Assembly: GCA_030549335.1 (NCBI GenBank)
Contig: CM060198.1
Coordinates: 48,573,353 to 48,637,352, forward strand
Reading direction: 5' to 3'
Origin: Pontederia crassipes
Taxonomy: Eukaryota; Streptophyta; Magnoliopsida; Commelinales; Pontederiaceae
DNA: 64,000 bases
Position numbers and translations under genes: made by a program. The notes beneath the pieces are model-generated. The model saw only the letters and a program-made list of their open reading frames with translations, ran no database searches and was not told where the DNA came from. Positions 2,221 to 57,813 of this stretch are shown one piece after another; within the stretch, counting starts at the first letter, position 1; every line of letters starts with the position of its first letter.

Positions 2221-2925
2221 ACATATACCCCCGACGCGGTCCGACGCCCGACCTTCGACGCGCCCCGACGCCCGACCTCCGGCGCCCGTTGCCTGACGTC
2301 CGACCTCCGACGCCCTCCACTGCTGCCTTCGGCCTTCGCCCGACGTCCGACGCCCGATGACCGCCCTCCACCGCCGCCGCCGCCCTCTGCATTCGACCGC
2401 CCTCCACCGCCGCCCTCTGCATTCGCCGCCGCCCTTCGCCGCCTCCTCCTCCTCCTCCGCCCTCCCCGATGGTTCGCCTCCGCCACGGTCCGCCCTCCCC
2501 GACGGTTCGACGCCTCCTCCTCCACCGCCGTCCGTCGCATCCTCCGCCGCGTCGTCCGTCCTCCGCTCTTCGCCTCCGCCGCCCTCCGCCTCCACCGCCG
2601 CTCGTTGCGTCCACCGCTGCCTCGTCCGCCCTTCGCCGCGTCCTCCATCCACCGCCGCCGACGTCCTCCACCGCCGCCAACGTCCTCCCCCTCCGCCCTC
2701 CCCGACGGTTCGCTGCCTCCTCCTCCACCGCCGTCTGTCGCATCCTCCGCCGCCCTCCGCCTCCACCGCCGTCCGTCGCGTCCACCGCCGCCTCGTCCGC
2801 CCTCCACCGGCGCCAACGTCCTCCACCGCCGCCAATGTCCTCCGTCGCCACTGCCCACCGCCTCCACTGCCATCTCGGCCGCCCTCCGCCCTTCGCCGAA
2901 GGTACTAGGCCGCCGCCATGTAAAT
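2221..2925. other. GC-rich CCG-repeat block of element A
   Basis: About 700 bp of extremely GC-rich, CpG-dense sequence built from degenerate units such as CCTCCACCGCCGCC and CGACGCCCGACCTCC, in an otherwise AT-rich element. Several frames are open on both strands, but they read only Arg/Gly or Pro/Ser/Arg low-complexity sequence and are almost certainly not genes. The homologous block in B (58145-58940) lies at the same place, between the 5' subterminal region and the TNP2 leader intron. That suggests a promoter or 5' leader role; this is inference. Confidence 0.75.
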
Positions 2926-2934
2926 TAAGTTAAT

Positions 2935-3485
2935 TATTAATGCATGAAGTTAAATTACGTTAATTATTCATGTTAAGTTAGGTATTACTTATTCATGTTA
3001 TTATCATGTTAAATTAAGTAGTACTTAAGTGAATTATCATCTCTTTGGATCAAGTTAGTTTTACTTATTAAGTATAATATTAAGTATCATCTCTTAGAAA
3101 TTAAGTTAAGTATTACTTAAGTTAATTATTACTTATTCATGTTATGAATTAACTTAAGTAGTACTTAAGTTAATTATCATCTCTTTGGATCAAGTTAATT
3201 AGTATTACTTATTAAGTATTACTTAAGTTAAGTTAACTTAACTTATGTTAATTGTTATCTTAACTTATGAAGTAATGTTATGAATTAAGATAACAATTAC
3301 TTATTCATGTTATGAATTAACTTAACTAGTACTTAAGTTAATTATCATCTCTTAGGATCAAGTTAATTAGTATTACTTATTAAGTATTACTTAAGTTAAG
3401 TTAACTTATGTTAATTGTTAAGTTAACTTATGAAGTAATTCATGTACTTAAGTTAAGTATTACTTATTCATGTTATGAATTAAGT
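2935..3485 (+). repeat. AT-rich tandem array in leader intron of A
   Basis: Degenerate repeats of a unit of roughly 170-175 bp, built from TTAAGTATTACTTA, TTCATGTTATGAATTAA and ATCATCTCTTAGGATCAAG. Three partial to full units lie between about 3000 and 3480. The corresponding part of B (57960-58140) is shorter and keeps only one or two units. Confidence 0.65.
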
Positions 3486-3493
3486 TAAGTATT

Positions 3494-3550
3494 ACTTGAA
3501 ACATGTGATTTTGGACTTAATTCGTAAGTTCAAAATCACACGTTTCAAGT
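3494..3550. other. 57-bp palindrome (potential hairpin) in leader intron of A
   Basis: The arms begin ACTTGAAACATGTGATTTTG and end CAAAATCACACGTTTCAAGT. They are 25 bases long, separated by about 6 bases, with two mismatched positions, one of which would be a G-U pair in RNA. It lies about 40 bp upstream of the AG splice acceptor (3589-3590) preceding the TNP2 start codon. Element B has the same structure at 57814-57870. Confidence 0.8.
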
Positions 3551-3592
3551 ACAACAAATTTCTTACTTGGCTTAATGTTCTCTGTTACAGAA

Positions 3593-3637
3593 ATGATAAA
3601 GCCACATCGTAGTTGGATTCGTCGTTGGAAGGATAAA
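3593..3637 (+). pseudogene. TNP2 transposase, 5' remnant (element A)
   Basis: After the acceptor CTGTTACAG, the ATG at 3593 opens MIKPHRSWIRRWKD, the start of a Transpos_assoc domain. Element C (MRPDRSWIQHWKD) and element B have the same start. Homology then breaks off near 3637 and the sequence matches what follows the DUF4216 stop codon in B. The entire rest of TNP2 has therefore been removed by an internal deletion. Confidence 0.85.
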
Positions 3638-3727
3638 AGTTATTCTAATGACATAAGCTTTTTACTTTTTTTAAAAGTTATATATGGTTATTTTTAATAA
3701 TAGAAGTTTCTTTCTTTTTTTTCAATC

Positions 3728-6075
3728 ATGGTTAATAGGGGTCGAGCTTCTGGGTCATCTCGCTCTTCCAGGCGTTCAATCCAGATAAGTCAGCCATCAC
3801 AACCACCAGGTAATATATTTATTGTGAGCTACTTATTTATAGTTGTTTATAATAGTTAAATTCATTTTTTAATAATATCAGTTCCTCCGCCGCCGACGGG
3901 GCACGTAGCCGGATCGTCACATAGTAGGCGATCCATTGGTGGGTCTGCTCAGCGTATCATTCCAGGTACGTGACACATTTTGGGCAATAAACAGTAGGAG
4001 ATAGAGTTTTTTAAATATTTTGCTTTTGTGACAGTTGCTCCCGTCGACGGGGAACATAGTCGGTACGTCTCGATCGCACGACCACGATCGTCATGTCACA
4101 CCAGGTTATTTTTTATATATTACTTAATTTTATGTAGGAGCCAAATTTTATGTATTTTATTGTGATGGCAGTTGCTACCCCACCGCCACCGCCGAGAATA
4201 ACAGACGCTTCACCACAATCTAGTGTTGGCGAGCGACATCTTATGCCAGGTGATATATTTATTGTTATTGACATTTCTCAATTAATTATATTAATTTTTT
4301 TTTAATAATGTCAGTTGCTACGCCGCCGATAGCACAAGCTAATGACTCAATTCATTCAGACGAGCGGACTGCTACTGATCATGCGATACACATCAATCGA
4401 GGTGAGAACATTACTGTATATCTATCAATTATCACAATTTTAATTTGGTATGACACTAATGATTTATTATGTATTAGGGCCCGTAGCTGATGTCGGACCT
4501 TCACAGCCTACCACAGCTATACCGAATGATGATTCCTCTTCGAGTGATGAAGAGGGATTACATGATAATGGAGTGGTCACTGTGAATAATATTGCTCGAT
4601 CGTAAGTTAAATAAGTTGTACAAATTTTGTTATAATTTTGGTTATCATTGAAAATTAATTCTTCTTTGTAATTGGCAGGACCACTTTCTTACCCGATAGT
4701 ACCATGCGGGATGTCAATGCTCTCGTTCTTTTCCACTTGCCGGAAGGGGCAGGATCCTAGAATGATGTCCCAATTCAAGTGCGAGATGACATCTTTCGAG
4801 CTTTTATGGGATGATCTTCTATTTGGGTTACATAATTTGATTTATATTTATTTTAAAATTACTAAGTTTTAACGTTCTATTAGTAGGAGGCAAATTAGTT
4901 TCATCCGGATCTTAGTTTAGGGACGATCCGGAGAGCTTTTGAGGAGGTCGCTGCGAAACGCCTCCGAAATCGATTATACAAGTTTCGCAAGGTCGTCACG
5001 CCCGTCGGCCTCACTTTGGAGCAGGGCATACAAAGATGCCCAAGACATATTAGACGCTCAATTTGAGAGTCCCTCTGTAGGAAGTGGTAAATATGTATAC
5101 TTTTATATTATTTTTATGAAAATTATAGTTTTTTGAAAGTGTAAGTATTTGATGTTCACAAAGGACGGATGAACGATGTCAAAGGAAGTTGGAAAAGGCA
5201 AGAGTTAACCGACTTTCGAAGCCCGAGGCCCACATCCACACAGAGGGATCGATGCGATTTGACGAGCATCGACAGCGCATGGTAATTTACATATAAATTC
5301 AATTAATCAAACTTTTGACTTATACTTATGTTATCAAATTTAAAACTTTATTTGAGGAGAAAGAAGGTGGTCCCGTAGACTTTCGTGTGGTCTATGAGGC
5401 CACGCATAAGAGCCGAAAGACAAACGACTTAGTCACGCCCACTTCTCGTAGGCTTCTGGTAAGTCTCATGATATGGTCATTTGGTTGTTGCCGTTAGTGC
5501 AATATTTTTTAAATACACAATGTTTAAATTTTTTAGGATGAGTATAATGCAAAAATGGCTGAAAAGTATGGAGATGATCTGAGTACTCAGCCACCAGATA
5601 ATGTTTCTTCGTTGGTTTAGTCATGTTTTTAATTTACATGATTCTTGATATATAATTTATATATTATATGATTTTATAATTTTTCTATTTCGTAAAGGAC
5701 CCTACTGTTTGAGAAGAGGTGGCCGGCACGACACGAGGGGGATACTTGCGTGGCCTCGGCACAGCTGCTCAGATACATAGGAGGATCGGAGGATATGCAG
5801 GTTGTGCATCTGCTCCGAGCTCATCCGCTGCACCTAATCTGACGCAGCTATCACAGCAGCTATCGCAGCAATTATCGGAGCAAATATCGTAGCAGGTGTC
5901 GCAGCAGGTGTCACAGTAGTTGTCGCAGCAGTTGTCGCAGCAGTTGGGTCTATTGCAGGCGATTCAGGGATTGATCCCGACGCAGAATCCATCCCTGCGA
6001 GGCCATGGACCGAGCACGTCTGGGTCGAACATCCGGAATGATAACAATAACTCACAAACCTATGATAAAAAATAA
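3728..6075 (+). pseudogene. TNPA-like CACTA protein, Transposase_24 family (element A)
   Basis: This is a multi-exon gene for the accessory, DNA-binding-type CACTA protein. Exon 1 (3728-3809) opens MVNRGRASGSSRSSRRS. Short exons follow at 3882-3965, 4035-4104, 4172-4249 and 4315-4401, then exons near 4478-4601, 4680-4830, 4888-5084, 5161-5280, 5355-5458, 5537-5600 and 5700-6075, each with readable GT/AG borders. The Transposase_24-like core includes GGPVDFRVVYEATHKSRKT (5356-5412). The C-terminus is a Gln/Leu array of four-residue LSQQ units followed by GLIPTQNPS. It is broken by a TGA where TGG is expected (near 5708), TAG stops at 5890 and 5917 replacing CAG, and one exon (4035-4104) whose length shifts the frame. 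It is therefore probably inactive. Confidence 0.82.
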
Positions 6076-12225: not shown

Positions 12226-12734
12226 TTTAGCGTCATAGCATATGTGACGCTATGTCGACGCTTATGATAGAGTCAATATGAGTCGATATGGGCGTCAGCC
12301 ACTTGCGCTTTGTTGGCGTCGACTTCAAGCGATGCTACTTAATGTCACCAAACATGCGATGCTAGGTAGACGCTAAGTAGATGCCTTACGAATTAAATAT
12401 TCCTAATTAAATATATATGTTACCTACATATGTATTCCTACACTTACCAACATATGTATTACTATATTATATGTGGCAACTACGTATATATTCGTATACT
12501 ATATGTTAGCTACATTATATGTATTACATACATATGTATTCCTATACCATATGTTACATATGTATTATTGATAAATTATTTTTATATTCTTAATCCTGGA
12601 ATTATGAGGGTTTAACTAAATGACATGATTTAGCGCCACAGTATAGACACAATGGCAGCGACATCATGCTCCAATAGTGCATATTAGCAGCACATTAGCA
12701 ACGCAAGTGTTGTCGTCGCTAATTTAGAGCAATG
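12226..12734 (+). mobile_element. CACTA element D, left part (split by C)
   Basis: TAGCGTCATAG, GACGCTATGTCGACGC and TTAGCGCCACAGTATAGACAC match the subterminal order of element A (compare 1290-1340). The exact left terminus is degraded and I cannot fix it within about 30 bp. The sequence stops at 12734 where C begins and resumes at 24570 after a duplicated ATG (12732-12734 and 24567-24569). Confidence 0.7.
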
Positions 12735-13440
12735 CATTACAAGAATTTGAGCTATTAGCTACAGATTTTAGCGACTCCATATTCCGTAGCAATATTGTCA
12801 CAGTTAGTGACAGATTAGTGACAAATTTGAAACACATTTAGTGCATCATCTCCACAAACTAAACTGACGATATAGTGACGCAATTGTGTCCACATTAACT
12901 ACGGAAATTATGGTCACTAAAATTAGTCGACGTATCATAGTCAAGCTGTAACAAATCCGTCACTATATACTGACACTAATCGGTCTCTAATTTGTCTTAG
13001 GTATGTCGCTAACAGTTACACATTTACTACATATTTGGGACACGTTTAGTGCACCGTCTTCACAAATCTAACTAATAATATAGTGACAAGTCTGTGACCA
13101 TATTAAGTACAGACATTACGGTCCCTAATGTCAGTCAGTATATTATAACTAGTCTGTCCCTAAAATCAGACACTAATTTATCTCTACTTTGTCTCAAATT
13201 TTGTTGCTAACAGTTACAAATTTACTACATATTTGAGACATTTAGTGCACCATCTCCACAAAAAATAAGATGAAAATTACGACCATTAATATAAGTTGGT
13301 ATATTGTAATAAATCTGTAACTAATTTGATCCTAAACTGTGATACTAATCTGTTTCTAATCTGTAACTGATCTGTCCTTAAATTGACACTAATGTGTCTC
13401 TATTTTGTCTCAAATTTTAACATTAAAAATTACATACTAC
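12735..13440. repeat. Left subterminal repeat region of element C
   Basis: Repeated TTAGTGACA, GTGACAAATTTG, GTGCACCATCTCCACAAA and GTCACTAA motifs in both orientations recur with a period of about 200 bp. Examples are the GTGCACC...CTCCACAA segment near 12840, 13050 and 13250. These are probable transposase-accessory binding sites. Confidence 0.75.
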
Positions 13441-14338
13441 TGACTTGCGATAATTTTTTTACAATCATTTATACTATCTACTTTAGTTATAATTTCTTTT
13501 GCTTATAATGGCTAGACGTTTGTACAACAATATTTTGGAATCGATAATTGATCATCAAAAGTGAAATGATTTTATTTTGTTATTTAACAATTGAAATAAC
13601 TCTCAAGATTTTTAAGGTTAATGTGAAAACTATAATAGAAAATTTAATAAAGTGCTTGTGTCGCACTCGAACACGATGATCATTGCTTGGGAACATGACG
13701 AACCATGTGCGGGTATTCATTGCCATCATTGGCCATGGATCTCTTACTGAATGGTGGAGATCTGCTCCGCATCCATACGTCGAAACACCTATGACTCATG
13801 TGTATTTTACCCTATATATATAATTGTTGAAGTTGGCGAATACTTCAAAACCCGTGAGCTTAGGAGAATTTGAGTATTACCCAATTACCTGTGCTGCTGG
13901 TGTACTGACAAAAGGGGGGTTCGGGGGGCAGCGCCCCCGAAGCCTAGATGGGTTTGAGCTTTGGTTTAGTCGACCCGTGTGGTGCGGATTACAATAAACT
14001 AATGAAAGTAAGAATAATTCACAATTTTTATAAGTAAATATTAAAAGAAACATTTTGCAAAAAAATATTTTATAAGTATTCATTAATGATATAATAAATT
14101 GAAAAAGTTCTAAAAAACATAATATAATTTTAAATATTTTTATGCTTATTAAGTAATAAAAAATATTTTATAAATATTATTTAATTATTAAGTATAATTT
14201 TAAAATATTTTTGTAAATAAAAAATACTTTCCCTCTTTCCTCCCAAAATTTTCCCCTTTTCCTCTTTCCCTCTTTCCCTCTTCCCCTAAAACCCTAAACG
14301 ACATTTCCCTCTTCCCTCTTCCCTTTTTCCCTCTGACA
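13441..14338. other. Gene-free AT-rich leader of element C
   Basis: No gene is recognised. It contains a short GC-rich inverted motif GGGGGCAGCGCCCCCGA (13925-13941), a form often seen in plant repeats, and a pyrimidine-rich run of CCCTCTTTCC units (14230-14335) just before the tandem repeat. Confidence 0.45.
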
Positions 14339-14424
14339 TTTTTGCTCCTCTTCGACATTTTTGGATCGAGACCTCAAAGATATTTTTGCTCCTCTTCAAC
14401 ATTTTTGGATCGAGACCTCAAAGG
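14339..14424 (+). repeat. 44-bp tandem repeat, two copies
   Basis: Copies starting at 14339 and 14383 share TTTTTGCTCCTCTTC and ATTTTTGGATCGAGACCTCA, with one or two differences. They lie at the start of the putative 5' leader of the transposase transcript. Confidence 0.9.
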
Positions 14425-14499
14425 TTCTTCAGGGCTTCAGGTGCATCATTCTTCCACTTTTCCTACTTTTTTCATTCGTTTTTTCGACATTTTATTCGT

Positions 14500-14815
14500 T
14501 TTCTTCTTTGTGCAGCCGCGGGCAAGGGCTTGTACGCGCAGGCTGCCGTCGGCGACCCCTACGTTGGTCGCCGACGCGCGCCCCAACTCCCTGTGCCCTC
14601 AAGGGCCAACCAGCGACCCCTGCCATTATTGGCAGGGTTCATCTCAGGCCACTGGGCGGGGAGCTTGGTTTCATGCCGGCGACCCTTTTTTTGTTTTCTT
14701 CTTTGTGCGGCCGGCGCGCAGGGGCCCGTACGTGCAGGCTGCCGCCGGCGACCCCTGCGTTGGTCGCCGGCGCACACCCTGACTCCCTGTGCACACAGGG
14801 GCCAACCATTTTTTT
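14500..14815. other. GC-rich duplicated block in element C leader
   Basis: Two related GC-rich segments (about 14497-14600 and 14687-14810) both contain CTTCTTTGTGC, GCAGGCTGCCG, CGGCGACCCCT and TTGGTCGCCG. Frames are open on both strands but carry no recognisable protein. The position, upstream of the TNP2 leader intron, parallels the CCG block of A and B, although the sequence is unrelated. Confidence 0.6.
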
Positions 14816-15244
14816 AGTCCTCATCCGAGTAGAGTGAATTCCCATTTTTTGGTATTGTTATCAATTATCCATGTGCTCTCCTTTTTTTCTTCTTTCTTTC
14901 CTAACTTTAGCATATAACTCTCAATGTGTACGTGAACTTGTTCTTTTATCAAAGTATTCCAAAATTATTTCTAAAGCATTGACTGAATTCTAAAATTATT
15001 TCTAGGGAACCTAAAATTTGTTTGATATGAAATCAGGATGTAACACTGATCTTCTTGTTTTAGGATGGCATCTAGTGGTTATTGCTTCTTTTGATGATTA
15101 TCAGAATCTATTCATACACATAAGCTAAAACTGGACTTGTATGCAGATTTACAACGGGTTCCTGTATCTCTGTTATAATTGTAGTTAGTTGTATAGTTTG
15201 AACAATACACTAAAATTAAAATTTCCTCTTTTTCAGCACAAAGT

Positions 15245-15520
15245 CTGCTCCTCTTTTTTTTTACTCATATTTTGCTTTTAGATTTCTGTATCAGTAATTT
15301 GAACTTTATTGGACAAACTTTGGAAATTAGAAACAGATTCATCATGACAGTTTTTCAATTAACTCCTATTCTTGGTCTGACTTAGTTCAAACATTGACAG
15401 TTGCTCCTCTTTTTTCTACTCACATTTTGCTTTTAGATTTCTGTATCATAAATTTGAACTGTATGGGACAATAGTTGTTCAATTAACCCCTGTTCTTGGT
15501 TTGATTCTTAGTTCAATTTT
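15245..15520 (+). repeat. Diverged tandem repeat in leader intron of C
   Basis: Two copies of about 150 bp (about 15248-15390 and 15405-15520) share GCTCCTCTTTTTT, CATTTTGCTTTTAGATTTCT and CAATTAACYCCTRTTCTTGG. The surrounding U-rich sequence from about 14830 to 15960 looks intronic and holds no gene. Confidence 0.7.
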
Positions 15521-15969
15521 TTTTGCACAAAGTATTAGTTTTCTGAATCTGTCTTCTAGTTTCTTGATGTCTTGGAGTGGATGATTTCTATAGAATGAAA
15601 TGGAGTTGATCTACTGAAATGTAAATGCACAGTATATGTAAAAAAATTGTACATCATAAAATCATATGCCACTGGTTGTTCCGGGGACATAAATACCATC
15701 ATAGAATCATGCTCCTTGTCAGTTTCATTTACTTATTATTTTCTAAGTATATTTCATGTTCTGTTTTGGTATAATTACATAGTTATAATTACATTGTTAC
15801 TTTTTTTTTGCTCACATTTCACTGCTCATAATAAGATTTCAGTACACAATCTTACTGACAATAATATATTTGGGCCTTTTAAAAGCATAACAATAATATA
15901 TTTGGTTGTGTCACACTTGTTATGAGAGAGGCTTATGCATATAGTCTTTCCTACATAAATTTCAGCGAG

Positions 15970-18900
15970 ATGCGACCCGATCGAAGTTGGATCCAACATT
16001 GGAAAGATGAACATGGATTTATAACAGAAAGTTTTAAAGATGGTGTTGACGAGTTCATAAAGTTTGCTTATGAACATGAAGATGTGGTTGATATTGGACG
16101 CCAAATCCTATGTCCTTGTGAAAAATGTAAAAACTTTCGATGGAAGCTCAAGTATGAAGTGCAAAAGGATTTATATCATAATGGCTTTTTAACTACTTAT
16201 GTCAATTGGACTTTGCATGGTGAGGAGCAATGGGTGGATAGTAATACAACATCTGTTGAAGTATCAAATGGATTTGAAATACAAAATCCTTATTTGGATA
16301 TGGTTAGGGATGCTGAAGTGAATCACTTAGGAAATATCAATATCCCACAGGAGGAAGAAAATCCAAATCCAATAGCTTCTAGGTTTTATCGGCTTCTTAG
16401 AGATACTGATGAACCTTTGTGGGAAGGATGCGAGAAGCATAGCACACTATCTGCTGTGGCACAATTAATGAACCTGAAGTCTGAGCATAATATGAGCGAA
16501 AACTGTTTTGATCGTATGATTGCTATTATAAAAAGTATGTTACCAATATCTGAGAAATTATCAACAAATTTTTACAAGTGCAAGAGAATGATGAAAGAGT
16601 TAGGATTAGAATATCAAAAAATTGATGCGTGTCGTAATCATTGTATGTTGTACTATAAAAAAGATAATACACTCATAAATTGTAAGTCCTGTGGTGAGCA
16701 GCGATACAAGCCGAAAAAAAATGGCAATGTCAATCAAAAGGATGTGCCTTACTCAATGCTTAGATATTTTCCTATTGTTCCAAGATTGCAAAGGCTATTT
16801 CTCTCTGAAAAAGTAGCAATGTTTATGCGTTGGCATGCTGAAGGATTGCGTGAGAATCTTTCGATGATAACACATCCATCTGATGCTGAACATGGAAGGA
16901 TTTTGATGCACGCCATCCAACATTTGCTAAGGAGTTTAGGAATGTTAGATTGGGTCTTTGCACAGATGGGTTCAATCCATTTGGTTCTTCAACAACGGCT
17001 TATTCGTGTTGGCCTGTGTTCATAACACCATATAATTTACCTCCAAGCATGTGCATGAAAAGAGAGCACATATTTTTAACAAGCATGATTCCTGGGCCTC
17101 GATCCCCGAGTAAGAGTCTAGACATCTATTTAAGGCCACTTATTGATGAGTTGAAGATTTTGTGGGATGATGGAGTCTTAACCTACGATAAGTCGACAAA
17201 ACAAAATTTTATAATGAGAGCAGCTTTGATGTGGACAATCAGCGATTTTCCAGCTTATGGAATGTTAAGTGGATGGAGCACGAAAGGAAAGCTTGCATGT
17301 CCAATATGTGGCAAGCACACAAAATCATTTTATCTAAAGAATGGCAGAAAGGTTTGTTGGTTTGATTGCCATCGAATGTTTTTTGCCTATTGAGAATTCA
17401 ATGCGTCGTGATCGTAACTCATTTAAAAAATCGACAATTGAGAATACTATGCCCGCAAAAAGAATTACAGGAATGGAGGCATTTGAGGAGGTCAACAAAC
17501 TTGAGCCCATCACCTTTGGATTGAAGGCGAATCCGTTCAAGCAAGTTGGTTTTGGAAGTGATCATAATTGGGAGAAGAGAAGTATATTTTGGAATTTGCC
17601 TTATTGGTCCTCAAACATGATTCGTCACAATTTAGATGTCATGCATGTTGAAAAGAATGTGTTTGATAACATATTTAATACTATTATGGACATAAAAGGT
17701 AAGACGAAGGACAATGCAAATTCTCGAGAGGACATGAAGCTAATATGTAAACGTCCAGAACTAAATTTGATTCACTTACATAATGGAAAGTACATCAAGC
17801 CAAAAGCAACTTATGTACTAAATAATGAAGAACAAAAGCTTGTGTTTCAATGGGTAAAAAACTTAAAATTTCCTAATGGGTATGCATCAAATATATCTCG
17901 ATGTTTTAATATTGAAACCGGAAAGATACATGGAATGAAAAGTCATGATTGTCACATTTTCATGCAAAGATTGATTCCTCTGGCCTTTAAGGATTTTTTG
18001 CCTAAGGCTGTTTGGGATACCATAATAAAATTTAGTACATTTTTTAAAGAGTTATGCACCTCTAACATTCGCAAAGAGGACATGTCATGTTTAGAATGTT
18101 CAATTGTGACATCTTTGTGCAAGGCCGAGAAGATTTTTCCACCTTCATTCTTTGATGTGATGGAGCATTTAGTCATGCATCTACCATACGAAGCAAAAGT
18201 TGGAGGACCTGTACATTATCGATGGATGTATCCGTTTGAGAGATGCATGTTGTATTTGAAAAAGAAGGCTAAAAATAAGGCTAGAATTGAGGGATCTATA
18301 TGTGAGGCACATTTTATAGAGGAAGTATCTAATTTTACTTCGTTATACTTTGAAGCAAATATTCAAAACTCAGGTTCCACGAAATGATGATGGTGGAGTC
18401 GATCTAAACAAGAAATGTTTGTCCATATTTAAATATCCATTCCACCTTATTGGAAAGGGACGTAATGTTATGTTGAATGACAATGATCTTACACTTGCGG
18501 AGAAATATGTTTTGATGAACTGACATGAGATGACGCCTTACATTGAGTGAGTACATTTGCATGAAATAATTTTACCTTTTTTTATTAAGATGTAATATTT
18601 TTTTAAACATATTATGTTTTTGGTAAAATTAGGCAATTTGAAGATTTTCAAAGACATCAAAATCCTTATATCACAGACAATCAACTCTTGCAAATTCGAG
18701 ATGAAGAATTATCTTCATGGCTAAAGTATCAAGTGAAGAATGAATTGGTGAAAGATCCATTGATCAGAGACTTTAGTTATGGACAGTTTAAAAAAGTGAC
18801 AACATATAATAGTATAGTTGTCAATGGCTATAGATTTCAGACATATGAGTATGGTCAATACAAAACCACCATGAATAGTGGAATTTGTGTTCTTGGCAAC

Positions 18901-19479
18901 TTGTACGGGGATAATGACATTGATTACTACGGGGTCATCGAAGAGATAATAGAGTTGACATATTTAGGCAAGGAAAATAAGGTCGTTGTATTACGATGTC
19001 ATTGGTTCAATCCAGAGCAAGGAGTCAAGGTTGATCCAAAGCATAATCTAGTTGAAGTTAGGCATCGATCCAGACTTCAAGGTTATGATCCATTTGTATT
19101 GGCAGAACAAGCACAACAAGTTTATTATACAAGTTATCCTTTAAAAAAAGGTCGGGATGAATGGTGGGCAGCATGCAAGGTGAGAAGTAGGCTTTTTATG
19201 AAGGAAAATATGGCTAGTGAAGCTGATATAAACATTGAAATACCTATGGATGACTACTACCAAGAGGATCCGATAATAAGGGCAATAGATATGGAGGAGG
19301 ATGGTGAAGAAAGAGTTGAATTATTTGATGCAAATGCTTCTATGGAAGAGGTGAATGTAAATGAGATAACCCATACATTAGAAGATGAAGACGATCAGTT
19401 CATTAATGATGAAGATATCATTGATAGTTGTGATGACACTAATGATGAGGAGGAATATGAATCGCTTTCAAGCGAGTAA
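15970..19479 (+). pseudogene. TNP2 transposase, Transposase_21 family (element C)
   Basis: This is the catalytic CACTA transposase. I chose the ATG at 15970 because MRPDRSWIQHWKD aligns with the starts in A and B. Domains in order: Transpos_assoc with CPCEKCKNFRW (about 16110-16140); Transposase_21/TNP2 with CKSCGEQRYKP and CTDGFNPFG (about 16955-16985), whose Asp is a likely catalytic DDE residue; CPICGKHTKSF (17298-17330); HNLDVMHVEKNVFDN; DUF4218 with RIEGSICEAHFIEEV; then, after an intron (about 18549-18632), DUF4216 with YGVIEEIIELTYLG and DEWWAACKVRSRLF, and an acidic tail. It is broken by a one-base loss near 16890, one extra T in a T-run near 17380, a shift near 18370 and an in-frame TGA at 18521. 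All are single small lesions, so it decayed recently compared with B and D. Confidence 0.9.
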
Positions 19480-19594
19480 CCTTTTATAAAATGTTACATT
19501 TTATAATTAGGTAATATGTCAATTTATGATATGCTTATATTTCATTATATATTTTTCTAACCAATTAGCTATCAACTTGCATGTATAAACAATC

Positions 19595-21258
19595 ATGGTT
19601 CTTCGAGGAAGAGGTCGTCGTACATCAGCATCTGGGTCACGGTCAAGGCCTTCTGCTCCTGTGTCACCATCATGCTCCTACATCACCAGTTGTAGATATA
19701 GCGACCCCTCCTTCTAGACGCAGTGCTACAGGATCTATTCCGACACCACCAGTCGAAGGTAAGTAAAAAATGTTTGCTATTTTTTATGCTTTACTATCGA
19801 TTCTAATTTTATTTTTCTCTAAAAGTTCCAACATCTGAAGCACCAGAAGAGAATCAGAACGTTTCTCAGCCAGGAACAATAGTCGGACAAGAGAGCTTGG
19901 AAGGTGGACCAATATACACTGGATGTGTTGGAATCAATGATCCAAAAAAATCGTAAGTAATTGTAATCATAGTTTTCAAATAAATTTATACTAACTATTG
20001 CTACACATTGTTAAATATATATAGGGTTACTTTTACACCGGACAGTATTGTGCGATATATTAGCAATCTTGTGATTGGGAGATTGCCGCCAAATGCACCA
20101 TCATGGCACAAGGTTCCGAGAGATCTTAAGGAGAGGATGTTTCATCACTTTTTGGTAAAATTTTAAAAATATGTAGTACTAATCAATATTATTTTGAATT
20201 AATATTTTTTCTTATTATAGGAGAATCATAAATTTGAGCCTGGATTAACCGAAGAAGTCATACGAAAAGTTTTTATGCATGTCGCCAAAAACCGTCTACG
20301 TGGCCAATTGTACAATTTTAGACATAAGGCGGCAAAAGCAACAAATAATAACTTTGAGTTCACCTCCTGCTGGATTAAATTGTGATGTTTGGCACTCACT
20401 TTGTGATGCATGGTACAATTTATAAAATTTCATTCAATATATACTTTTTAACATTTTATCTTTTAGATAATAAAATCTTCTTGATTTGCAGGAGTTCGGA
20501 GGATTGGAAAAAAAGATCAGTGGCAGCAAAAGGTAATCGTGCTTCAAAGCCTGAGGCTGTTTTACACACAAGAGGATCAATTCCTTTCTCAAGTCACAAG
20601 CGTCGTTTGGTAACTTTATTAAACTTTGTTATAATCTTATACATCAAAATTAAATATTTACTAACTTTATTAATCATCAATACAGGAGGCAAAAAACAAA
20701 GGTCCGATTGATTATAGAGAGGTTTATGAGTTGACGCATAAGAGCAAAAAGACAAAAAATTTTGTCACTGACTACTCTCTTAAAGTTTATGTATGTTGGT
20801 GATACATTTAATTTTTTTTCGAAGTATTTGCTTACTAACTCACTTTTATCTTATTTTAGGAGGACTATAATTCCAAAGTAATTGAAAAGTATGGTGAAAA
20901 TCCGGATACACAACCATCACTCGATGTGGAACTATGAAAAGAAGCAGGCGGAACAACCAGAGAAGGATCTCTTCATGGATTGGGTACATCGGTCTCATCT
21001 ACTGGATCAGCTACATCTGCTGGGCAAAATGGCAATGGTTCGTTCTTTTCATCATTTGTGCAGGATGGTAGGATCGATCATTTTAAGGATGTTGTCGGCG
21101 ATGTCGTGGATGACCGCATGAAGAATGCATTCGGATCATTGATGGATAGTTACTGTCAACCAGGAGGAGCATTTGAACAGATGCTCAAACGACTTTTGAT
21201 CAATTCAACGGATGATGCTGGATCGAGCACTTCATCGTCTAATATAAGAAATGATTGA
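19595..21258 (+). pseudogene. TNPA-like CACTA protein, Transposase_24 family (element C)
   Basis: Exons inferred from GT/AG borders are 19595-19758, 19826-19952, 20025-20154, 20221 to about 20395, 20492-20609, 20686-20790 and 20860-21258. Exon 1 opens MVLRGRGRRTSASGS. The Transposase_24 core includes KVPRDLKERMFHHF, FMHVAKNRLRGQLYNFRHK and IDYREVYELTHKSKKTKNF. The C-terminal part continues with SFVQDGRIDHFKDVVGD. Lesions are a frameshift near 19670 in exon 1 and a TGA at 20935 where TGG (Trp) is expected. It lacks the Gln-rich LSQQ tail of the A/B relatives. The presumed role is binding subterminal repeats and aiding transposition. Confidence 0.85.
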
Positions 21259-21426
21259 TGATTAGAGTTACTAGTTACTAAACTTGTCATCACTATTTTG
21301 GTTTGTGTTTGGAGACATGTTGAACTATTTGAATTTATATTTGAGACATTATGTTGGTTGTTATTTTGTTAAGTTAGACTTATATAATATATATTATGTA
21401 AGCATTTTGCTACTTTTGTGATGAAG
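21259..21426. other. 3' untranslated region of element C TNPA gene
   Basis: AT-rich sequence after the stop, without open frames. It runs up to the apparent start of foreign DNA near 21427. Confidence 0.45.
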
Positions 21427-21612
21427 AATGTCATTTTTATTTTGGACTACTTGGAAATGTTGATTGTGAGCCAACTGAAGAATTTAGCCTGGGAAGGGGC
21501 ATATGTGAAGGTTGCCCACTCTCTCCATATTACGAATCATTGAAGTTCTTCGCTGCTTTGGAGCAGCCTGAGGACACGGGTGAGCAGCTTATTAGTAACT
21601 ATTGAGTGCATT
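21427..21612 (+). other. Open segment of unknown origin in captured region of C
   Basis: One frame stays open for about 55 codons. It contains NVDCEPTEEFSLGRGICEGC and SPYYESLKFFAALEQPEDTG and is followed by GGTGAG-like donor sequence. The composition is more gene-like than its surroundings. I do not recognise the family. It lies directly upstream of captured ARF-GAP exons and may be another captured exon, possibly not from the same gene. Confidence 0.3.
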
Positions 21613-21749
21613 TGTGTTATTTGTCTAATGCTGTGGGATGTTGATCAGATTTGCAAGTTATATCAGTGCTTAACTCTGTTTACAAAAGGAAAACTGTGTT
21701 TTCCAGTTATTGAACATCGTAGTAATCATTTCTATTTTACATATTGTAG

Positions 21750-22192
21750 GTAAGGTCTCTAACACTTGATGTAAAAGCATGGGAGCCCTCTGTTATTAAC
21801 CTGTTTCAGTCCTTGGGTAATACATTTGCAAATTCCCTTTGGGAGGACTTATTACCATCAGCAAGTAATGGAAGGTAAGATGATGATTCTAGGTAAGAAT
21901 TATGATAAATGGGTGCACCATATTATTTATGCAACAAAAAAATGACTTTCTGGCATTCTGAAGAAAAATGTATCTAGAGAACTATGAATAAACCTTCCAA
22001 CAACAGTTAAAAATTTCTTTGCAAAATAATGGTTGTTACAAATTGCATGTAATTGTTGTATTTTAGGTAACATATAAGCTGTTATTGTTATGCAGTTTTT
22101 GTTTACTTGACAAGAAAAATGATTACATCTTTCCAAGGAAGCCCAAATTCTCTGATCCAATATCAGTGAATGAGATGTTTATTCAATCAAAG
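21750..22192 (+). pseudogene. Captured fragment of an ACAP-type ARF-GAP gene (two exons with intron)
   Basis: ARF-GAPs of this class (plant AGD1-4 type) stimulate GTP hydrolysis on ARF GTPases in vesicle trafficking. Exon 21750-21874 encodes VRSLTLDVKAWEPSV, FQSLGNTFANSLWEDLL and so on, the second half of the ARF-GAP zinc-finger domain. Exon 22096-22192 encodes DYIFPRKPKFSDPISVNEMF, the conserved stretch after it. The first exon ends in phase 2 and the second starts with the base that completes the codon, so the spliced frame is intact across the retained intron (21875-22095). Acceptor TTGTAG, donor GTAAGA, acceptor TATGCAG and donor GTATGA are all present. The CxxC zinc-ligand part and the BAR and PH domains are absent. 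It lies downstream of TNPA inside transposon C, in the same orientation, and is a transduplicated genomic fragment, not a working gene. Confidence 0.85.
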
Positions 22193-23430
22193 GTATGACA
22201 CAGGATGACTTATCTTTTCATCACTTCTGATTAAATTGGTCTTAGTGACAACCAACCTGACAAAGAAGGGAACATCATATCAGATGAGCTGAGAGAATTG
22301 AATGCACAAGAAGAGGCCTTTCTTGTGCGGTGATTTCCATCAAGGATTCTTAATTTTGGTGTAGGGGAAACTTATATTTTGCATAGGGGTTTGTATGGTC
22401 TGTACTGGTGGTGGGTTTAATTAATCCTGTAAGACCACCCTCTGGAGTTCAGTAGCAGCTTAGCTGGACATTTATAACTCAGTAAATGAGGTTTCAAATT
22501 GACTAGTTCAGTCAAGACCTCTGCTGATCAGCTCAGACTGATCCAATTCCTTAATATGAGAGTTGCAATGAAGTAGTCACCAGTAGAAACAATCAGTGAA
22601 GATTATAACACTTTTTTTTTCTGGCGGATGCATGCTACAACTTGCAATTGCTTAGGAGTGAGACTCCTGCTATCGTGACTCGCAATAATCTTTTGTTTGT
22701 ATTGCAGAAACCATTAGCTTTTACAAGGGCCAATAATCTTTTGCTGTCAGATATTCCAACCAGGATGGTACACTGATGATCTAGGCCCACGAAGTCTTCT
22801 TCCAACACAGAAAATATTGAACACACGCCGATGTGTGTTTGATGATGATGATTAAGGTACTGTCGCACATTGGAACACCATAGAATTAGCATTCGTTTTC
22901 TTTCTTAAATCATCCATTGTGATGTCTCCACTTCTTTGTTGTTTCTGCACCATCTGTACTATATCACTGGGTCATACGTACTATGATAAGGAAGTATGCA
23001 CATACTGCGTATATATATTATAAGTTTTGTACATATAAATATCCCATATACACCATCATTTGATCATCCACCACTTGCCTTGGTAGATCAGAAGGCATCT
23101 TTATAGAATACATTATACATTATACACCACCATATGTTCATCCAACCTTTACTGTAATTATTCGGTATATGAAGTAAAAGCTCAGTCACTAAATACCAAG
23201 AGCAACAAAAACTAGCATTCAGGAGTGAATCGACATTCCATGATTACTTGAATTAATTATATATATTTATCTTTTTGAAAAGATAGCATATTGTTTGCTG
23301 TAAGCAAAATGAGCACCATTTTCTATGTTTACTTGTACAGATATACATTGTCCATGGAACTGCCAATAAATTATAACATGATGACTTCTTAGATGATATG
23401 TTAGAAATGTTGCAATGATGCTCCAAAAGA
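22193..23430. other. Non-coding filler between captured fragments in C
   Basis: Looks like intron or intergenic DNA carried along with captured genes. A possible acceptor (TTGTATTGCAG, near 22706) precedes a short stretch that I cannot assign. No convincing exon is seen. Confidence 0.4.
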
Positions 23431-23434
23431 TAAG

Positions 23435-23632
23435 ATATATGTCAAACACTACTAGTTCAGACACTACTAGTTCAATAAATTATAACTGCCAATGTTGCAA
23501 TAAATTATATATGCTCTCCTTCCCAGCAGATATATGTCAAACACTACTAGTTCAGACGTCTGCAATGGTACAGAGATAGATAAGCTCATCTTGATCAGCT
23601 TTATACATATATGTCAAACACTACTAGTTCAG
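23435..23632 (+). repeat. Short direct repeats at the capture junction in C
   Basis: GTCAAACACTACTAGTTC occurs three times in a 26-bp identical core at 23435-23460, 23530-23555 and 23607-23632. A fourth partial copy CACTACTAGTTCA directly follows the first. AATAAATTATAACTGCCAA-type words are also shuffled here. The pattern looks like filler DNA made during repair, just upstream of the glycolate-oxidase exon. Confidence 0.8.
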
Positions 23633-23730
23633 GCATGCATGCAGGGATGAATGCCAGTGACTGTTGCAGCATCAGCATGCATCTCCCTGTCTTGTGTACT
23701 TTCTTCCATGCCCCCTTAAAATGGATGCAG

Positions 23731-23862
23731 ATTGGAAGGCCAGTCGCGTTCTCCTTGGCTGCTGAAGGCGAGGCTGGCGTGAGGAAGGTGCTGCAGATGT
23801 TGCGAGACGAGTTCGAGCTGACCATGGCGCTGAGCGGCTGCACCTCGCTGCAGGAGATCACA
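23731..23862 (+). pseudogene. Captured exon of glycolate oxidase ((S)-2-hydroxy-acid oxidase)
   Basis: Glycolate oxidase is the FMN-dependent peroxisomal enzyme of photorespiration that oxidises glycolate to glyoxylate. After an intact acceptor (GATGCAG), the sequence reads [29 protein letters not shown] and [14 protein letters not shown], the conserved C-terminal part of the family. Homology stops at EIT without the usual C-terminal peroxisomal targeting tripeptide. The fragment is strikingly GC-rich against the AT-rich element, in keeping with recent capture from a host exon. Only about 44 codons of a protein of roughly 370 residues are present, in the same orientation as the transposon genes, so it is not a functional enzyme gene. 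Confidence 0.9.
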
Positions 23863-24004
23863 TGCAGACTTCTATTGCTATTATGTGTTGTATATTCTTT
23901 ATAGGGTTTTTTTCGCTTACCGTCCCGAATTATGAAATGATGAACTTGATTAGTGCTTCTTTGATGATCTAGTGAGGACTTTTGTACCCAGTGTGATGTA
24001 TTCA

Positions 24005-24566
24005 TATACTCTATTTAAACTTTGTAATGAGCATTAGCTCCACTTTATCAATCGAAAAATGATATATAGATATTTTTGTTATATTGGTTATTGTATTGTC
24101 ATTTATTTCATTGTATAATTAATAATTTGATATAAACAATATTATTGTGAAAAAATTATTGTTAATTTGTGACTGGATTGGGATAGTTTTGAGACAAACG
24201 GCAAACTGTGGGGACCAATTGTGATAAAAATTAGCTACGGAATAAGGACAAATAGTCACAAAAAAAATATAATTATTTTATCGCCGTAACATTATAGTTA
24301 CTACTTAGTGACAGATTAGCTACCGATTTTATATTCTAATAATTAAGATTTGCCACAAATTAGGGACGGATTAGGGACGACAGCACACATAATTAGCTAC
24401 AAAAATAGGGACACAAATTTGTGTCGCAATCAGCGACGAGGTATTAGCTACAGATGTACTCTGTCCATAATCCGTAGCAAATCCGACGTTAATATTATTT
24501 GCGATAGTATTACCTACGGATTTATTACAGATATCTCCGTAGCTAATAGCTCAAATTCTTGTAGTG
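24005..24566. repeat. Right subterminal repeat region of element C
   Basis: AT-rich sequence grading into TTAGCTACGG, TAGTGACAGATTAGC, AGGGACGGATTAGGGACG and TCCGTAGCTAATAGCTC, ending ATTCTTGTAGTG. Motifs match the left subterminal region of C in inverted orientation. Confidence 0.8.
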
Positions 24567-24721
24567 ATGACTGCATCGATTTAGCGCTGCCTTATGTCGA
24601 CGTCATGTTGACGTCTCAATATGGCAACACCACATCAATGCTAATTAGTCGCTAACCATTCTTGCCACGAAATAACTAGATGAACATCGTGTCTTCAAAA
24701 ATAGATAAACAATAAAATTAT

Positions 24722-26408
24722 ATTGTTTCTTAGAAAATGATCAATGCAAAGTGGCTTTGGAATGGGTCAAAAAATTGAAATATTCAAACAGATATGCATC
24801 GAACATATCGTGTTGTTTCAACATGAAAATGAGAAGATACCATAGAGCCATGATTGTCATATTTTTGTGCAAAGGTTGCTTCCAATTGCCTTTAAAGAAT
24901 TTTATCAAAGGCCATTTTGGAAACATTAACAGAGTTATGTATGTACGTTAAAGAGCTTTGTACATCCACCATTCCTTACGGAGACATGTTTCGGTTAGAG
25001 TCTTCTATTGTGATTACCGTGTGCAAGGTTGAGAAGATATGTCCACCTTCTTTATTTGATGTGGTGGAGCACTTGATTATACATCTTCCATATGGAATAA
25101 AAGTTGCTGGCCCAGTTCAATATCGGTGGTGGATGTATCCTTTCGAAAGATGCATGTTATATTTGAAAAGGAAGATGAAGAATAAGGCAAAAATCGAAGG
25201 CTCCATATGTGAAGCATATTTCATTGAGGAAGTATCCAACTTCACTTCAATGTACTTTGTGCCACATATATAATCGTGACATATGCAAGTTCCAAGAAAC
25301 GATGATAGTGGTGACGGGAAAGTCAATAGAATATTTTATCAATCTTTAAGTACCCTTATCGTCTTCTTGGTAAAGGACGCAAAGTTATGTTGAGCGATAG
25401 AGATGTCACTTTAGTTGTCAATTATATCCTTGCAAATTGTAGCGAGATGAAACCGTATCATCAATAATTGACAATCTTCGAATTCAGGAAATTTGAAGAA
25501 TTAGAAATCAATCCTTTAGTTTCCAATAATGATTTGTTGACACTAAGAGATGAACATTTTTCCTCTTGGTAGAGAAGTGAAGTGAGAACATTTTTCCTCT
25601 TAGTTTCAAATGATGAATTATTGGTTTTATAATTTCTAATTATTTTTTTCCTCTTAGATTATCAATGACTCAGTGACTGATTTGAGAATTCAAAAAGTCA
25701 ATTATGGACCGCAAAAATAAGTTTGTAGTTACTATGGCGTGATAGTTAATGGATATAGACTTCATACGAAATAATATAGTCGACAACCTTCTACTATTAA
25801 TAGTGGCATATGTGTTTTGGAAAGTATGTACAGGGATAACAAGTTAGATTATTACGGCATTATAGAAGAAATCATAGAATTGTCATATTTTGGTAAATTC
25901 AATAAAGTCATAGTACTAAAATATCATTGGTTCGATCCAGAAAAGAGAGTTAGAGTCGCACAAAAGTTTAAATTTGTAGATATTAAGCCTCGATTAGGAC
26001 TACAATCATATGATCCATTCGTATTGGCTGAAAAAGTATAAGAAGTGTACTACACTAAGTATCCATCGAAAAGAACCAAGGATGAATGGTGGGTGTCATG
26101 CAAAGTGAGAAGTAGTCTATTCTTAGTAGAAACAATGGTAGTTGATTGTGAAACATCATCCATTTACAATGATGTGACTGTAGATGATTACTATCAAGAA
26201 GATCGCATGAGCAAGATGATTGATATAGTTGATAAAGTTGAGAATATTCAATATAGTTGATGACATTGAGCTAATGGAAGAGTTGACTTCAAATGACCTT
26301 TTAGAAGAGAGTGTTGACAATTTTATTGATGATGACTCGAATCAAGATTATAGCAACGCCGATGAAGATGATGAATTAGAATACGAGACAAGCAATTGTA
26401 TCACGTAG
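24722..26408 (+). pseudogene. TNP2 transposase, 3' part (element D)
   Basis: Begins in mid-gene with ALEWVKKLKYSNRYASNIS and continues through VEKICPPSLFDVVEHLIIHL, RWWMYPFERCMLYLKRK and IEGSICEAYFIEEVSNFTS (DUF4218). After a degraded intron region, DUF4216 follows with YYGIIEEIIELSYFG and DEWWVSCKVRSSLFL, then an acidic Asp/Glu tail ending at 26408. The N-terminal Transpos_assoc and catalytic Asp regions are missing. There are many stops and frameshifts, including TAA at 26039-26041 in the middle of DUF4216. It is a dead fragment. Confidence 0.85.
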
Positions 26409-26459
26409 TTGTTTTAACAAATTTAAATTTTTTTCACTATGTTTCTAATTTTTTTATGC

Positions 26460-28725
26460 ATGGTTACACGAGGTCGAGCTTCAGGTGTGTCCCACTCTTC
26501 CAGGCGCTCCCTATGAGTGATGCGAGTCGACTACCTGGTGATATATTTATTATGTAGTTTATTTATATTTGAATAATTGGTACTAATTAGTAACATTTTT
26601 TTTATGGTGACAATTGCTCCATTGTGGACGGGGCACATAGCCGGATCATCACATAATTGGATGTCTCGATTTCATGATGATGATCGACATATCACCACAA
26701 GTTATTTATTGTGTATCTAATAAATTTAAATATGTGCAAAAATTTTAACTATTTTTTTAATGGTGACAGTAGCTCCGCTGTCGATAGGGCACATAGCATG
26801 ACCGTCGCATAGTAGGCAGTCCATTGGTGGATCGTCTCGATCGCATGACTCCGATCGACATGTCATCGTGTATTTAATAAATTTAAGTACATGTAAATGT
26901 TTTAACTATTTTTTATGGTGTCAGTTGCTACGCTTTCGTCGAGACCGATGGATGCTTCTCCACATTCCAGCGTCCATTCCACACAACCACGCGCCAACGA
27001 CCGACATATTACGCTAGGTGATATATTTATTAGTATTTTATTTATAATTGTCATGTAATTATATTAATAATTTCTTATTTGAATGATTGTCACTTGCGCC
27101 GCCGCCGATGGAACACGCAGTTGGATCGACATATTTTGACGAGCGGACTACCATGGATCATGCAGCATTAGATATCAAACTGGGTACGAACTTTACTGCT
27201 GATATATGAACTATCATTAGTTTAATATTATAGTACACTAACGATTCGTTATGTACAAGGGCTTGTCGATCATGTCGGACCCTTTCAGCCTACTCCAACT
27301 ACAGCGGACGATAATTCCACTTCGAAAGAAAAAGAGGGATTTCACGATAATGGGATGGTCACCATGAACAACATTGTTCGTCCGTAAGTCAAATAATTTC
27401 TATAATTTATTTATAGTTTTTCTTATAAACGTAAAAATGATTTTTTCGTAAAATATAGGACACTTTCACACCCGCTTCTATCATGTAGGATGTTAGTGCT
27501 CTTGTCCTTTTTCACTTGCCGGAAGGGTCAGGATCGTGGAAAGATGTCCCAATTCAAGTGCGGAATGACATCATTCTGTCATTTACTATATGATCTTTTT
27601 TTGCATTAGATATTTTATTTTATATTAATTTTAAATTACTAACATCTATAATATTTTTTAGAAAGCAAATTAATTTCATCCAGATCTAAATTTAGGAATG
27701 ATCCGGAGAGCATTTGAGGAGGTGGCTACGAAATGTCTCAGAAATTGGCTATATAAGTTTTGCAAAGCTGCTACGTCCACCGACCTCACTTTGGAGCAAG
27801 GCATACAAAGATGTCGATACATATTAGGCATCCAATTTGGGAGACATCATGTAAGAGGTGGTAAGTTTGCATTTGAACTGATTTGATATAGGATGGATGA
27901 AGAATGGCAAAAAAGTCTAAAAGGAAAAAGTTAACAGACTTTCGAAGCCCGAGGCACACATCCACACAGGCGGCTCCATTCTATTTGACGAGCATCGAAT
28001 TCGATACAAAATAGAATAATTAAACTTTTATCTTATACTTATTTTATAAATTTGAAACTTTGCATAGGAAGAAAAACAAGGTGGTACTATAAACTTTCGC
28101 ACGGTCTACGAGGCCACATATAAAAGCAGAAAGACCAATGACTTGGTCATGCCCACTGCTGGTAGAGTTCTAGTAAGTATCATTACATGTTCACTTGGTT
28201 ATTCACATTAGCTTAAATGACTTTTCAAATATGCAATATTCAATTTTTTTTAGAATGTGTATAATCAAAATGGTCGAGAAGTACAGAGATGATCCTATTA
28301 CTCAACCACTACGTAACATATCTCCAAAATGATTCACATTTTAACATTATAACACTTTGTATGTTTATATGTTTTTTCTATGTTATATAATTTATATGAT
28401 TTACAATGTTATATATAATTTGTCTATTTTGTAAAGGGCATTATTGTTTGGGAGGAGGTTGCCGGTACGACACGAGGAGGATACCTATGTGGCATCAGCA
28501 CATTTGCTCAGTTTCTTAGGAGGAGCGGAGGATATGCAGTGGCTAATTTGCTCCGAGTTCATCACGTTGGACAGCATCGAGAACTCATCTCGGCAGAGCT
28601 AGTCAGCAGCTTCCTCAACATTTGACTCCCACCAGCCAAATACTCAGTCCCCATAAGGCCAAAGATCGAGTACGTCGACGTCGAATGTCAAGAATGACAA
28701 TGACGATGATAATGATTTAGGATAG
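26460..28725 (+). pseudogene. TNPA-like CACTA protein, Transposase_24 family (element D)
   Basis: The ATG at 26460 opens MVTRGRASGVSHSSRRS, homologous to the A and B genes. Short N-terminal exons follow, among them two GHIAGSSH-type copies (26609- and 26768-), then the core exon with FEEVATKCLRNWLYKFCK and LTLEQGIQRC (27700-27860), the THIHTGGSI motif (27958-27985) and TYKSRKTNDLVMPTAG (28117-28165). The C-terminal exon (about 28440-28725) lacks the LSQQ array present in A and B. Stops and frameshifts are scattered through it. Confidence 0.78.

Positions 28726-29652: not shown

Positions 29653-29750
<98 letters not shown>
29653..29750 (+). repeat. Compound microsatellite (TTA)n-(ACT)10
   Basis: About 22 TTA units (29653-29720) switch abruptly to ten ACT units (29721-29750). 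Confidence 0.97.
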
Positions 29751-38726: not shown

Positions 38727-38819
<93 letters not shown>

Positions 38820-51195: not shown

Positions 51196-51670
51196 CACTA
51201 CAAGAAAATGGGTGATTAGCGACCCAACATAAGCGACGCTAGGGTGGCGCTATTACGTCTCCGTGGTGAAGTGCATCTCATTCGCGTCTAGCTAGCGCCA
51301 CAAAATTGGGACGCTGCATATCGATGGCTACTGGCGTCGCAATAGAGTCAAAGGAAATGAGACGCTACTAGCGCCACGTGTTGACGCTATCTCGACTTTA
51401 TTAAGATGCGTGGTTTGCAGCTGTGCGTAGAAGACATGCATCGCTAAGTCGATGCGCAAGGGGCACTACGTATGAGGCACGATTCTGATGCCCATGAGTC
51501 GTTACGCTGGGTGTTAGGAAGGCGCTGAAGTGACGCAATATGATGGTGTACGCATCGCCAATGTGACGCGACTATGGCGCTAAGGATGATATATTTAATT
51601 TAGCGTCGACAGGCATTGCGACGCGAATGGTACGCTATGGAGTTGCTACTTGCAGATTTTTTACCCATTG
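51196..51670. repeat. 3' subterminal repeat region of element B
   Basis: TTAGCGACCC, AAGCGACGCTAGGGTGGCGC and GACGCTACTAGCGCC motifs from the CACTA end to about 51660, homologous to 6300-6794 of A. Confidence 0.85.
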
Positions 51671-51917
51671 AATCCTCATTTTTCCCCTTCCCAGACCATA
51701 CAATTATATAATGCATATAAAAATGCATTGATATTCATCACAAACAATATAAAAGCATCACAGGAAGTATAAGAGCATCGCATGCAATATAAAAGCATCA
51801 CAGGCATAATATTTAACATAAGAATACGAAAAGTTATAAACCGAACTAACAAACTATATGTATATCTAAATCTATAAGTAACAAAAGCATTGTTTGTATT
51901 CATGGGTTGTTTCTATC

Positions 51918-54091: not shown

Positions 54092-54192
54092 TTTATGACT
54101 AAAAAAAAGAAAGAAGCTTCTCTTATTATCAGTAACCATATATAACCTAAAAAAGAACTAAAAAGCTTAAGTCATTATAATAACTATGGGAT

Positions 54193-57100: not shown

Positions 57101-57771
57101 AACATGCAATGATTGTGGCATGCATCAATCTTCTAATATTCCAACCCTAAATCTCTTATCAACCATTTGCACTTGTAAAAATGTCTCGGTAATTTCTCTG
57201 AAGCTGGAAGCATACTCTTAATAATGGCAAGCATCCAGTCAAAACAACTTTCGCTCATATTAAATTCTGATTTTAAGTTCATTAGTTGTACCACTGCAGA
57301 AAGTGTAGTTTGCTTCACGCATCCATCCCATAAAGGTTCATCTGCTTCTTCGAGAAGATTATAAAACTTAGAAGCCGAAGTATTCGGGTCTTCTTCAGTC
57401 AATGTTTCATCAACATTTTCTCCTAACATTGCATCTCGTATCATATCCCTGTACGGATTGCTCGAGTCGCCCACAATGGTATCTACATTACTTGTTTCTT
57501 TAGCCCATCTTTCTTCGCCATGAAAGAACCAATTGGTGTATATTAGTAAGAAATCGTTGTAATATAAATCCTTCTGCACATCATATCATACTTTTCACTG
57601 ATAACATTTGCACTTCCGGCATGGACATAAGATTTTGCCATATGAAGAAGCAACACCTTCATTTTGATATGCCACATTAATGAATTCATCAACACCATTC
57701 TTATATTCTTTAGTTATGACGCCATGTTAATCCTTCCAACGACGAATTCAACTACGATCTGGCTTTATCAT
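54193..57771 (-). pseudogene. TNP2 transposase, Transposase_21 family (element B)
   Basis: The ATG at 57771 opens MIKPDRS and then hits TGA where TGG (Trp) is expected. Readable blocks follow: YTNWFFHGEERW (about 57530), LPRHFYKCKWLIRDLGLEY, CTDGFNPFGSS (about 56800-56765, putative catalytic Asp), TCPICGKNTKSF (56450), HNLDVMHVEKNVFDN (about 56130-56085), GMKSHDCHIFMQRLLP, DUF4218 remnants, VPRKDDGGEGEVE and, after an intron, DUF4216 and the acidic tail ending at 54193. Many stops and shifts are present, including after LGLEY and in the IPGPRSPNKSLDVYL stretch, so it is more decayed than the C copy. Confidence 0.88.
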
Positions 57772-57813
57772 TTCTGTAACGGACAACATTAAGCCATATG
57801 TCAATAAATTCGT

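Follow-up and report, generated by a model that had tools for sequence, protein, structure and literature searches.

We analysed a 64,000-nucleotide window of the 1.13-Gb Pontederia crassipes genome (contig C16:48573353-48637352). It contains a CACTA transposon, here called element C, with host-derived segments between its transposase region and its right end. The element is laid out as follows:

12735-24566, plus strand: CACTA element C (11,832 bp), with the inverted terminal sequence CAYTACAAGAATTTGAGCTATTAGCTAC at both ends
15883-19476, plus strand: tnp2-type transposase region, with Transpos_assoc, Transposase_21, DUF4218 and DUF4216 in that order
19600-21258, plus strand: region named TNPA in a preliminary description; three open reading frames tested, without Pfam match
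21259-21651, plus strand: sequence present at many places with the element family; origin unassigned
21652-22226, plus strand: captured ARF-GAP segment (575 bp), with two exons, their intron and flanking intron sequence
21750-21874 and 22096-22192, plus strand: ARF-GAP exons, separated by the intron 21875-22095
22224-23631, plus strand: third captured segment, gene unnamed, 79-89% identical to C25:3421034-3422495
23629-23903, plus strand: captured glycolate-oxidase segment, its last exon (from 23731) truncated
23904-24566, plus strand: right subterminal region and terminal inverted repeat

Element C is flanked by a 3-bp target duplication, ATG, at 12732-12734 and 24567-24569. Its right end reads CACTACAAGAATTTGAGC, its left end carries one change from the CACTA terminal repeat (CATTA), and several relatives read CACTA. 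Identical 3-bp flanks were found in 7 of 8 elements tested, C among them; the L066 element has the sole mismatch (CTG/CTA). A genome search for the 25-base end sequence, allowing 2 mismatches at most, gave 141 forward and 144 reverse matches, and 0 and 0 for the reversed control. In Pfam, the transposase region matches Transpos_assoc (E 4.3e-17), Transposase_21 (E 1.1e-72; the tnp2-type transposase of the CACTA or En/Spm superfamily), DUF4218 (E 1.1e-39) and DUF4216 (E 7.4e-20). Since these domains, read without introns, fall in several different reading frames, the frame appears interrupted and C can probably no longer make its own transposase. The name TNPA is that of the preliminary description and found no confirmation, none of the three open reading frames tested there having a Pfam match at E 0.01. 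The very high diversity of TNPA stretches among copies (0.29 and 0.19) probably reflects gaps and misalignment and was excluded from use.

Other parts of the window also hold CACTA sequence. A second element, in minus orientation, occupies 51196-60565; it has the ends CACTACAAGAAAAT and is flanked by TTC at either side, and its transposase region and that of C are, over part of their length, 71% alike. Another CACTA element, cut by the window edge so that its left part is missing, has its right end at 6794; it shares blocks with the 51196-60565 element that are 68-87% alike, and GC-rich tandem arrays (2227-2871 and 58241-58915) lie at corresponding places in these two elements. Directly to the right of C, and in the same orientation, is a CACTA-like remnant (24736-28563). 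Perfect trinucleotide arrays (TTA x23, TAC x10 and ATC x30) occur at 29653-29750 and 38727-38816.

The preliminary description had reported two ARF-GAP exons with their intron and intact, phase-consistent splice sites, and we found AG/GT at all four splice sites of the two exons and an open frame across the splice. The first exon matches Pfam ArfGap (tested as 21750-21875) at E 1.3e-4 and 22.5 bits, below the curated cut-off of 28.7, the exon being short, and the second exon alone gave no Pfam match. With the introns counted in, the whole segment and C11:3439317-3439891 are 94.6% identical across 576 aligned bases; a paralogous locus on C8 is 79% alike. Around the matching part, one strand of the C11 locus encodes PH (E 3.7e-8), ArfGap (E 9.1e-22) and ankyrin (E 1.9e-14) domains, together with a weak BAR match (E 0.003, below cut-off), and a second upstream open reading frame gave none. 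Since PH, ArfGap and ankyrin exons share one strand, we read C11 as a host ARF-GAP gene, presumably of the ACAP/AGD type, and as the candidate parent of the captured piece. Because the introns of the element align to those of this gene (93-95% identity in the alignment), the captured material, judged by its introns, is genomic DNA and not mRNA, as had been proposed.

The reported glycolate-oxidase exon is likewise present: 23731-23865 matches FMN_dh in Pfam (E 1.4e-13) and solved plant glycolate oxidases (best E 1.3e-19). Its position, like that of the ARF-GAP piece, is downstream of the transposase region and before the right end, and both pieces share the transposase's strand, as first described. 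The segment consists of 23629-23869 joined to 23870-23903, the latter coming from 285 bases further downstream in the parent-type gene. Compared with the C15 gene (L064), the first part is 86% identical to positions 3313-3567 and the second 91% identical to positions 3852-3884. By eye, the parent frame continues past 3567 to a stop codon, and this end of the exon is absent in C. The C15 and C16 glycolate-oxidase genes form a pair of candidate parents, up to 93% identical to the pieces in related elements. The piece in C is just 84-86% like them, which makes neither of them the sure donor. The preliminary description had suggested looking for the parent loci in the same genome, and the search there yielded candidates for both pieces.

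The two glycolate-oxidase genes are 94.3% alike, and stretches with ArfGap genes on C13/C14, C6/C5, C10/C9 and C12/C11 are 88 to 97% alike. Since the contigs pair up in this way, the plant looks like a tetraploid.

The cargo had been placed at 21427-23862 and ascribed to two unrelated host genes. Both gene pieces are there, with candidate parents, but 21427-21651 is not ARF-GAP, the glycolate-oxidase segment runs on to 23903, and the 1.4-kb third segment had been missed. The C25 match of this segment falls into three blocks of 88.8, 89.3 and 79.3% identity, and when the wider C25 locus was used as query, the element copies among the matches listed aligned to the captured part only. Since the two are 79-89% alike and no gene was identified, the C25 locus may be a relative of the donor and not the donor itself. 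Its four plus-strand open reading frames gave no Pfam match up to E 10. A minus-strand frame matched Pmp3 at E 0.06, under the cut-off, and we did not accept it as naming the gene; a distantly similar C14 locus (78% over 223 bases, outside the captured part) had no clear coding pattern by eye. At the left edge of the cargo as first placed, 21427-21651 also occurs near elements that have no listed ARF-GAP piece (best 40 of 123 candidates). We considered 21402-21605 as a further captured exon, for which Pfam gave nothing and the best PDB match had E 0.57. In a protein search with a 39-residue query from this stretch, 2 of 60 matches listed were full-length; since the others were partial or stop-bearing, we claim no exon here. 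L071 was rejected as its parent, as it has transposase sequence of the element.

The presence of exons would fit remnants of ordinary host genes hit by a CACTA insertion, and nothing beyond it points that way. The segments lie inside CACTA ends flanked by the ATG duplication. They recur at dozens of places, in the same type of element in the copies read, and the multi-exon genes exist elsewhere in the genome. We therefore regard this origin as having a negligible chance of being right.

The preliminary description treated the capture as a property of C. We found at least 40 ARF-GAP loci (best 40 of 70 candidates), which leaves at least 38 places after removal of the C11 parent and the C8 paralogue. 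Among these, at least 36 have glycolate oxidase, at least 29 have the third segment and at least 28 have both within 6 kb. Of the two places with no listed glycolate-oxidase match, one, C12:84862854 (L035), does hold glycolate oxidase when read. Full-length matches to the 801-base query, among those listed, have 97-98% identity to C. By these matches, the cargo is not peculiar to C and belongs to a family of dozens of copies. Five of the cargo-bearing places lie on C2 (9482187, 9540665, 9610742, 9663817 and 9715257), at intervals of about 51 to 70 kb, a spacing that would fit tandem duplication of a large block containing the element. In the related element L032, an open stretch at 2770-2964, which is absent from C, is possibly a further captured gene; it weakly resembles the start of a response-regulator receiver domain, which we did not adopt, the best PDB match (CheY) having E 0.47 and Pfam giving none.

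The two gene pieces had also been treated as arriving together, and the breakpoints suggest otherwise. Glycolate oxidase forms one block (parent positions 2718-3884) in 2 of 16 elements tested, L066 and L067. The joint 3567/3852 is present in C and in 13 of 13 others fetched (L031-L036, L038-L043 and L070); because of this common joint, these 14 elements appear to share one deletion that followed one capture. L066 and L072, which between them span the C13 element from end to end, and the 4 kb read of L067 showed neither the captured part of ARF-GAP nor the third segment. One L072 stretch of 102 bases is 74% identical to sequence of the ARF-GAP locus beyond the captured part and was not counted. 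Since ARF-GAP was found only in elements with the glycolate-oxidase deletion, among the elements read, the distribution most simply suggests that glycolate oxidase was captured once, before ARF-GAP. This reading rests on the joint and not on a tree: our unrooted right-end tree of 16 elements does not set L066 and L067 apart as a basal branch and places them weakly (support up to 38 around them).

The extents of the pieces are nested. L031-L034 have ARF-GAP parts of parent positions 3588-5453, of which C has just 4110-4684, and their glycolate oxidase starts from parent position 2972. The parts in L035, L036, L041 and L042 are shorter. In C's group, ARF-GAP covers about 4087/4110-4684 and glycolate oxidase 3313-3567, with the third segment between them. 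The right-end tree separates C, L038, L039, L040 and L043 from the other 11 elements with support 91. L070 falls outside this three-segment group (support 91) and has the third segment, including about 320 bases missing from C, and the same joint between third segment and glycolate oxidase, without ARF-GAP. On the left, its joint falls within the third segment, where an internal deletion would put it. Such a deletion, or recombination, may account for L070; alternatively, the third segment may have preceded ARF-GAP in one branch. Because of L070, the step placed last is unsure, and elements may have exchanged pieces instead.

Together, these findings suggest that C is a copy of a CACTA family that took up host DNA stepwise and then multiplied, with a cargo most likely without protein function; we put the probability of this reading at roughly 0.88. 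Intron-bearing internal sequence that matches host genes elsewhere in the genome, as C has, is what is termed transduplication. A glycolate-oxidase fragment of about 1.17 kb would have been placed beside the right subterminal region first. A deletion would next have removed part of it, and an ARF-GAP fragment no longer than about 1.9 kb would have joined it on the upstream side. On the branch leading to C, the two pieces would have lost further sequence and a third genomic segment would have been placed between them; amplification of the composite would have produced dozens of copies. The captures may have come about by aberrant excision from neighbouring elements or by template switching during repair, and the joints printed, with at most a few shared bases, do not discriminate between capture mechanisms. 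The close abutment of the segments at these joints would also suit a composite gathered by other mobile elements, such as Helitrons, and taken up ready-made by the CACTA family. We hold this to be very unlikely, given the nested subsets with shared joints inside CACTA elements, as seen among the elements read, a minority of the places listed.

Returning to the cargo of the stepwise reading, we looked for signs of function. The ARF-GAP exons of 20 copies (C and L010-L028) have 20 variable sites, of which 9 are at first, 6 at second and 5 at third codon positions. Since this is the spread expected without selection, these sequences give no sign of selection on the ARF-GAP piece at the protein level. 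Variable sites number 20 of 222 in the exons versus 48 of 353 in the introns, and 7 of 8 exon changes from the parent to the majority sequence are at third codon positions. The lower exon variation and the third-position excess could hint at constraint, which the parent's own constraint may explain. Splice dinucleotides are intact at all four sites in 26 of the 29 distinct ARF-GAP copies; after splicing, 23 copies have an open frame and 6 a broken one. These counts derive from 31 rows (28 and 25 positive), two of which, L038 and L039, are the same as L010 and L011; L041 was left out of the alignment for its short match. Element C shares exact 21-mers with the parent genes (149 with the C11 ARF-GAP locus, 22 with C15 and 46 with C16), and a control stretch of transposase shares 0 with C11 and 0 with C15. 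Because of these shared 21-mers, small-RNA crosstalk between cargo and parents is physically possible. Being passenger DNA with its splice sites preserved and with stretches of 21-24 bases that match the parents perfectly, the cargo could enter chimeric transcripts by splicing or give rise to small RNAs.

A rival reading is that the cargo is expressed and acts, with fusion transcripts or small RNAs lowering or altering the parental ARF-GAP and glycolate-oxidase genes. The kept splice sites, the open frames and the shared 21-mers are compatible with this, as is the soybean element Tgm-Express1, which is reported to give chimeric spliced transcripts (PMC1947982). On the other side stand the spread of exon variants over codon positions, the broken frames and the glycolate-oxidase piece without the end of its last exon, and we consider an active cargo unlikely. 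With candidate parents, longer pieces and trimmed copies all present in one genome, it is possible to follow the captures one after another, in their order and their breakpoints. That this is a transposase-bearing CACTA family with stepwise cargo and a readable stratigraphy, whose at least 38 copies jointly influence the parents through small RNAs or chimeric transcripts, is a more ambitious claim and a more doubtful one still. If such small RNAs or fusion transcripts exist, the family would allow the effects of cargo on two genes, one of photorespiration and one of membrane traffic, to be tested in nature.

The capture had been thought possibly undescribed. Among the papers found on CACTA with glycolate oxidase or ARF GTPase-activating protein, no title or abstract opening concerned such a capture, and the pairing of these two genes may be unreported in the literature covered. 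One of these papers, about a maize kinase and grain yield (PMC7033126), contains both terms. Multi-gene, intron-bearing capture by CACTA elements is of a kind already published in soybean, wheat and maize.

Among the systems described, Tgm-Express1 is like C in being a CACTA element with exons and introns of several unrelated host genes and usable splice sites; it is reported to carry exonic and intronic pieces of five genes and to give chimeric transcripts (PMC1947982). Tgm-Express1 is 5.7 kb long, lies in an intron and has transcripts shown, whereas C is 11.8 kb long, has transposase domains and is known from its sequence alone. For wheat chromosome 3B, a study reports 140 CACTA-mediated captures and 17 genes that exon shuffling may have produced (PMC4290129). 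Those elements resemble the C family in their captured genes, in the presence of one capture in several copies and in some exon shuffling, although other families and genes are involved. In Chenopodium, CACTA elements also carry captured host gene fragments, which are described in the 5' region (PMC8978399), whereas C has its cargo downstream of the transposase region, ahead of the right end. In maize, Pack-CACTA elements frequently combine DNA of several loci (PMC8903248), and a review presents a capture model of neighbouring insertions and aberrant excision (PMC13317346). Pack-CACTA and other Pack-TYPE elements of Arabidopsis, rice and maize share with C the CACTA ends around captured gene DNA; they are described as non-autonomous and are sorted by the absence of transposase matches (PMC8903248, PMC13317346), whereas C keeps its transposase domains and so falls outside Pack-CACTA as a class without transposase sequence.
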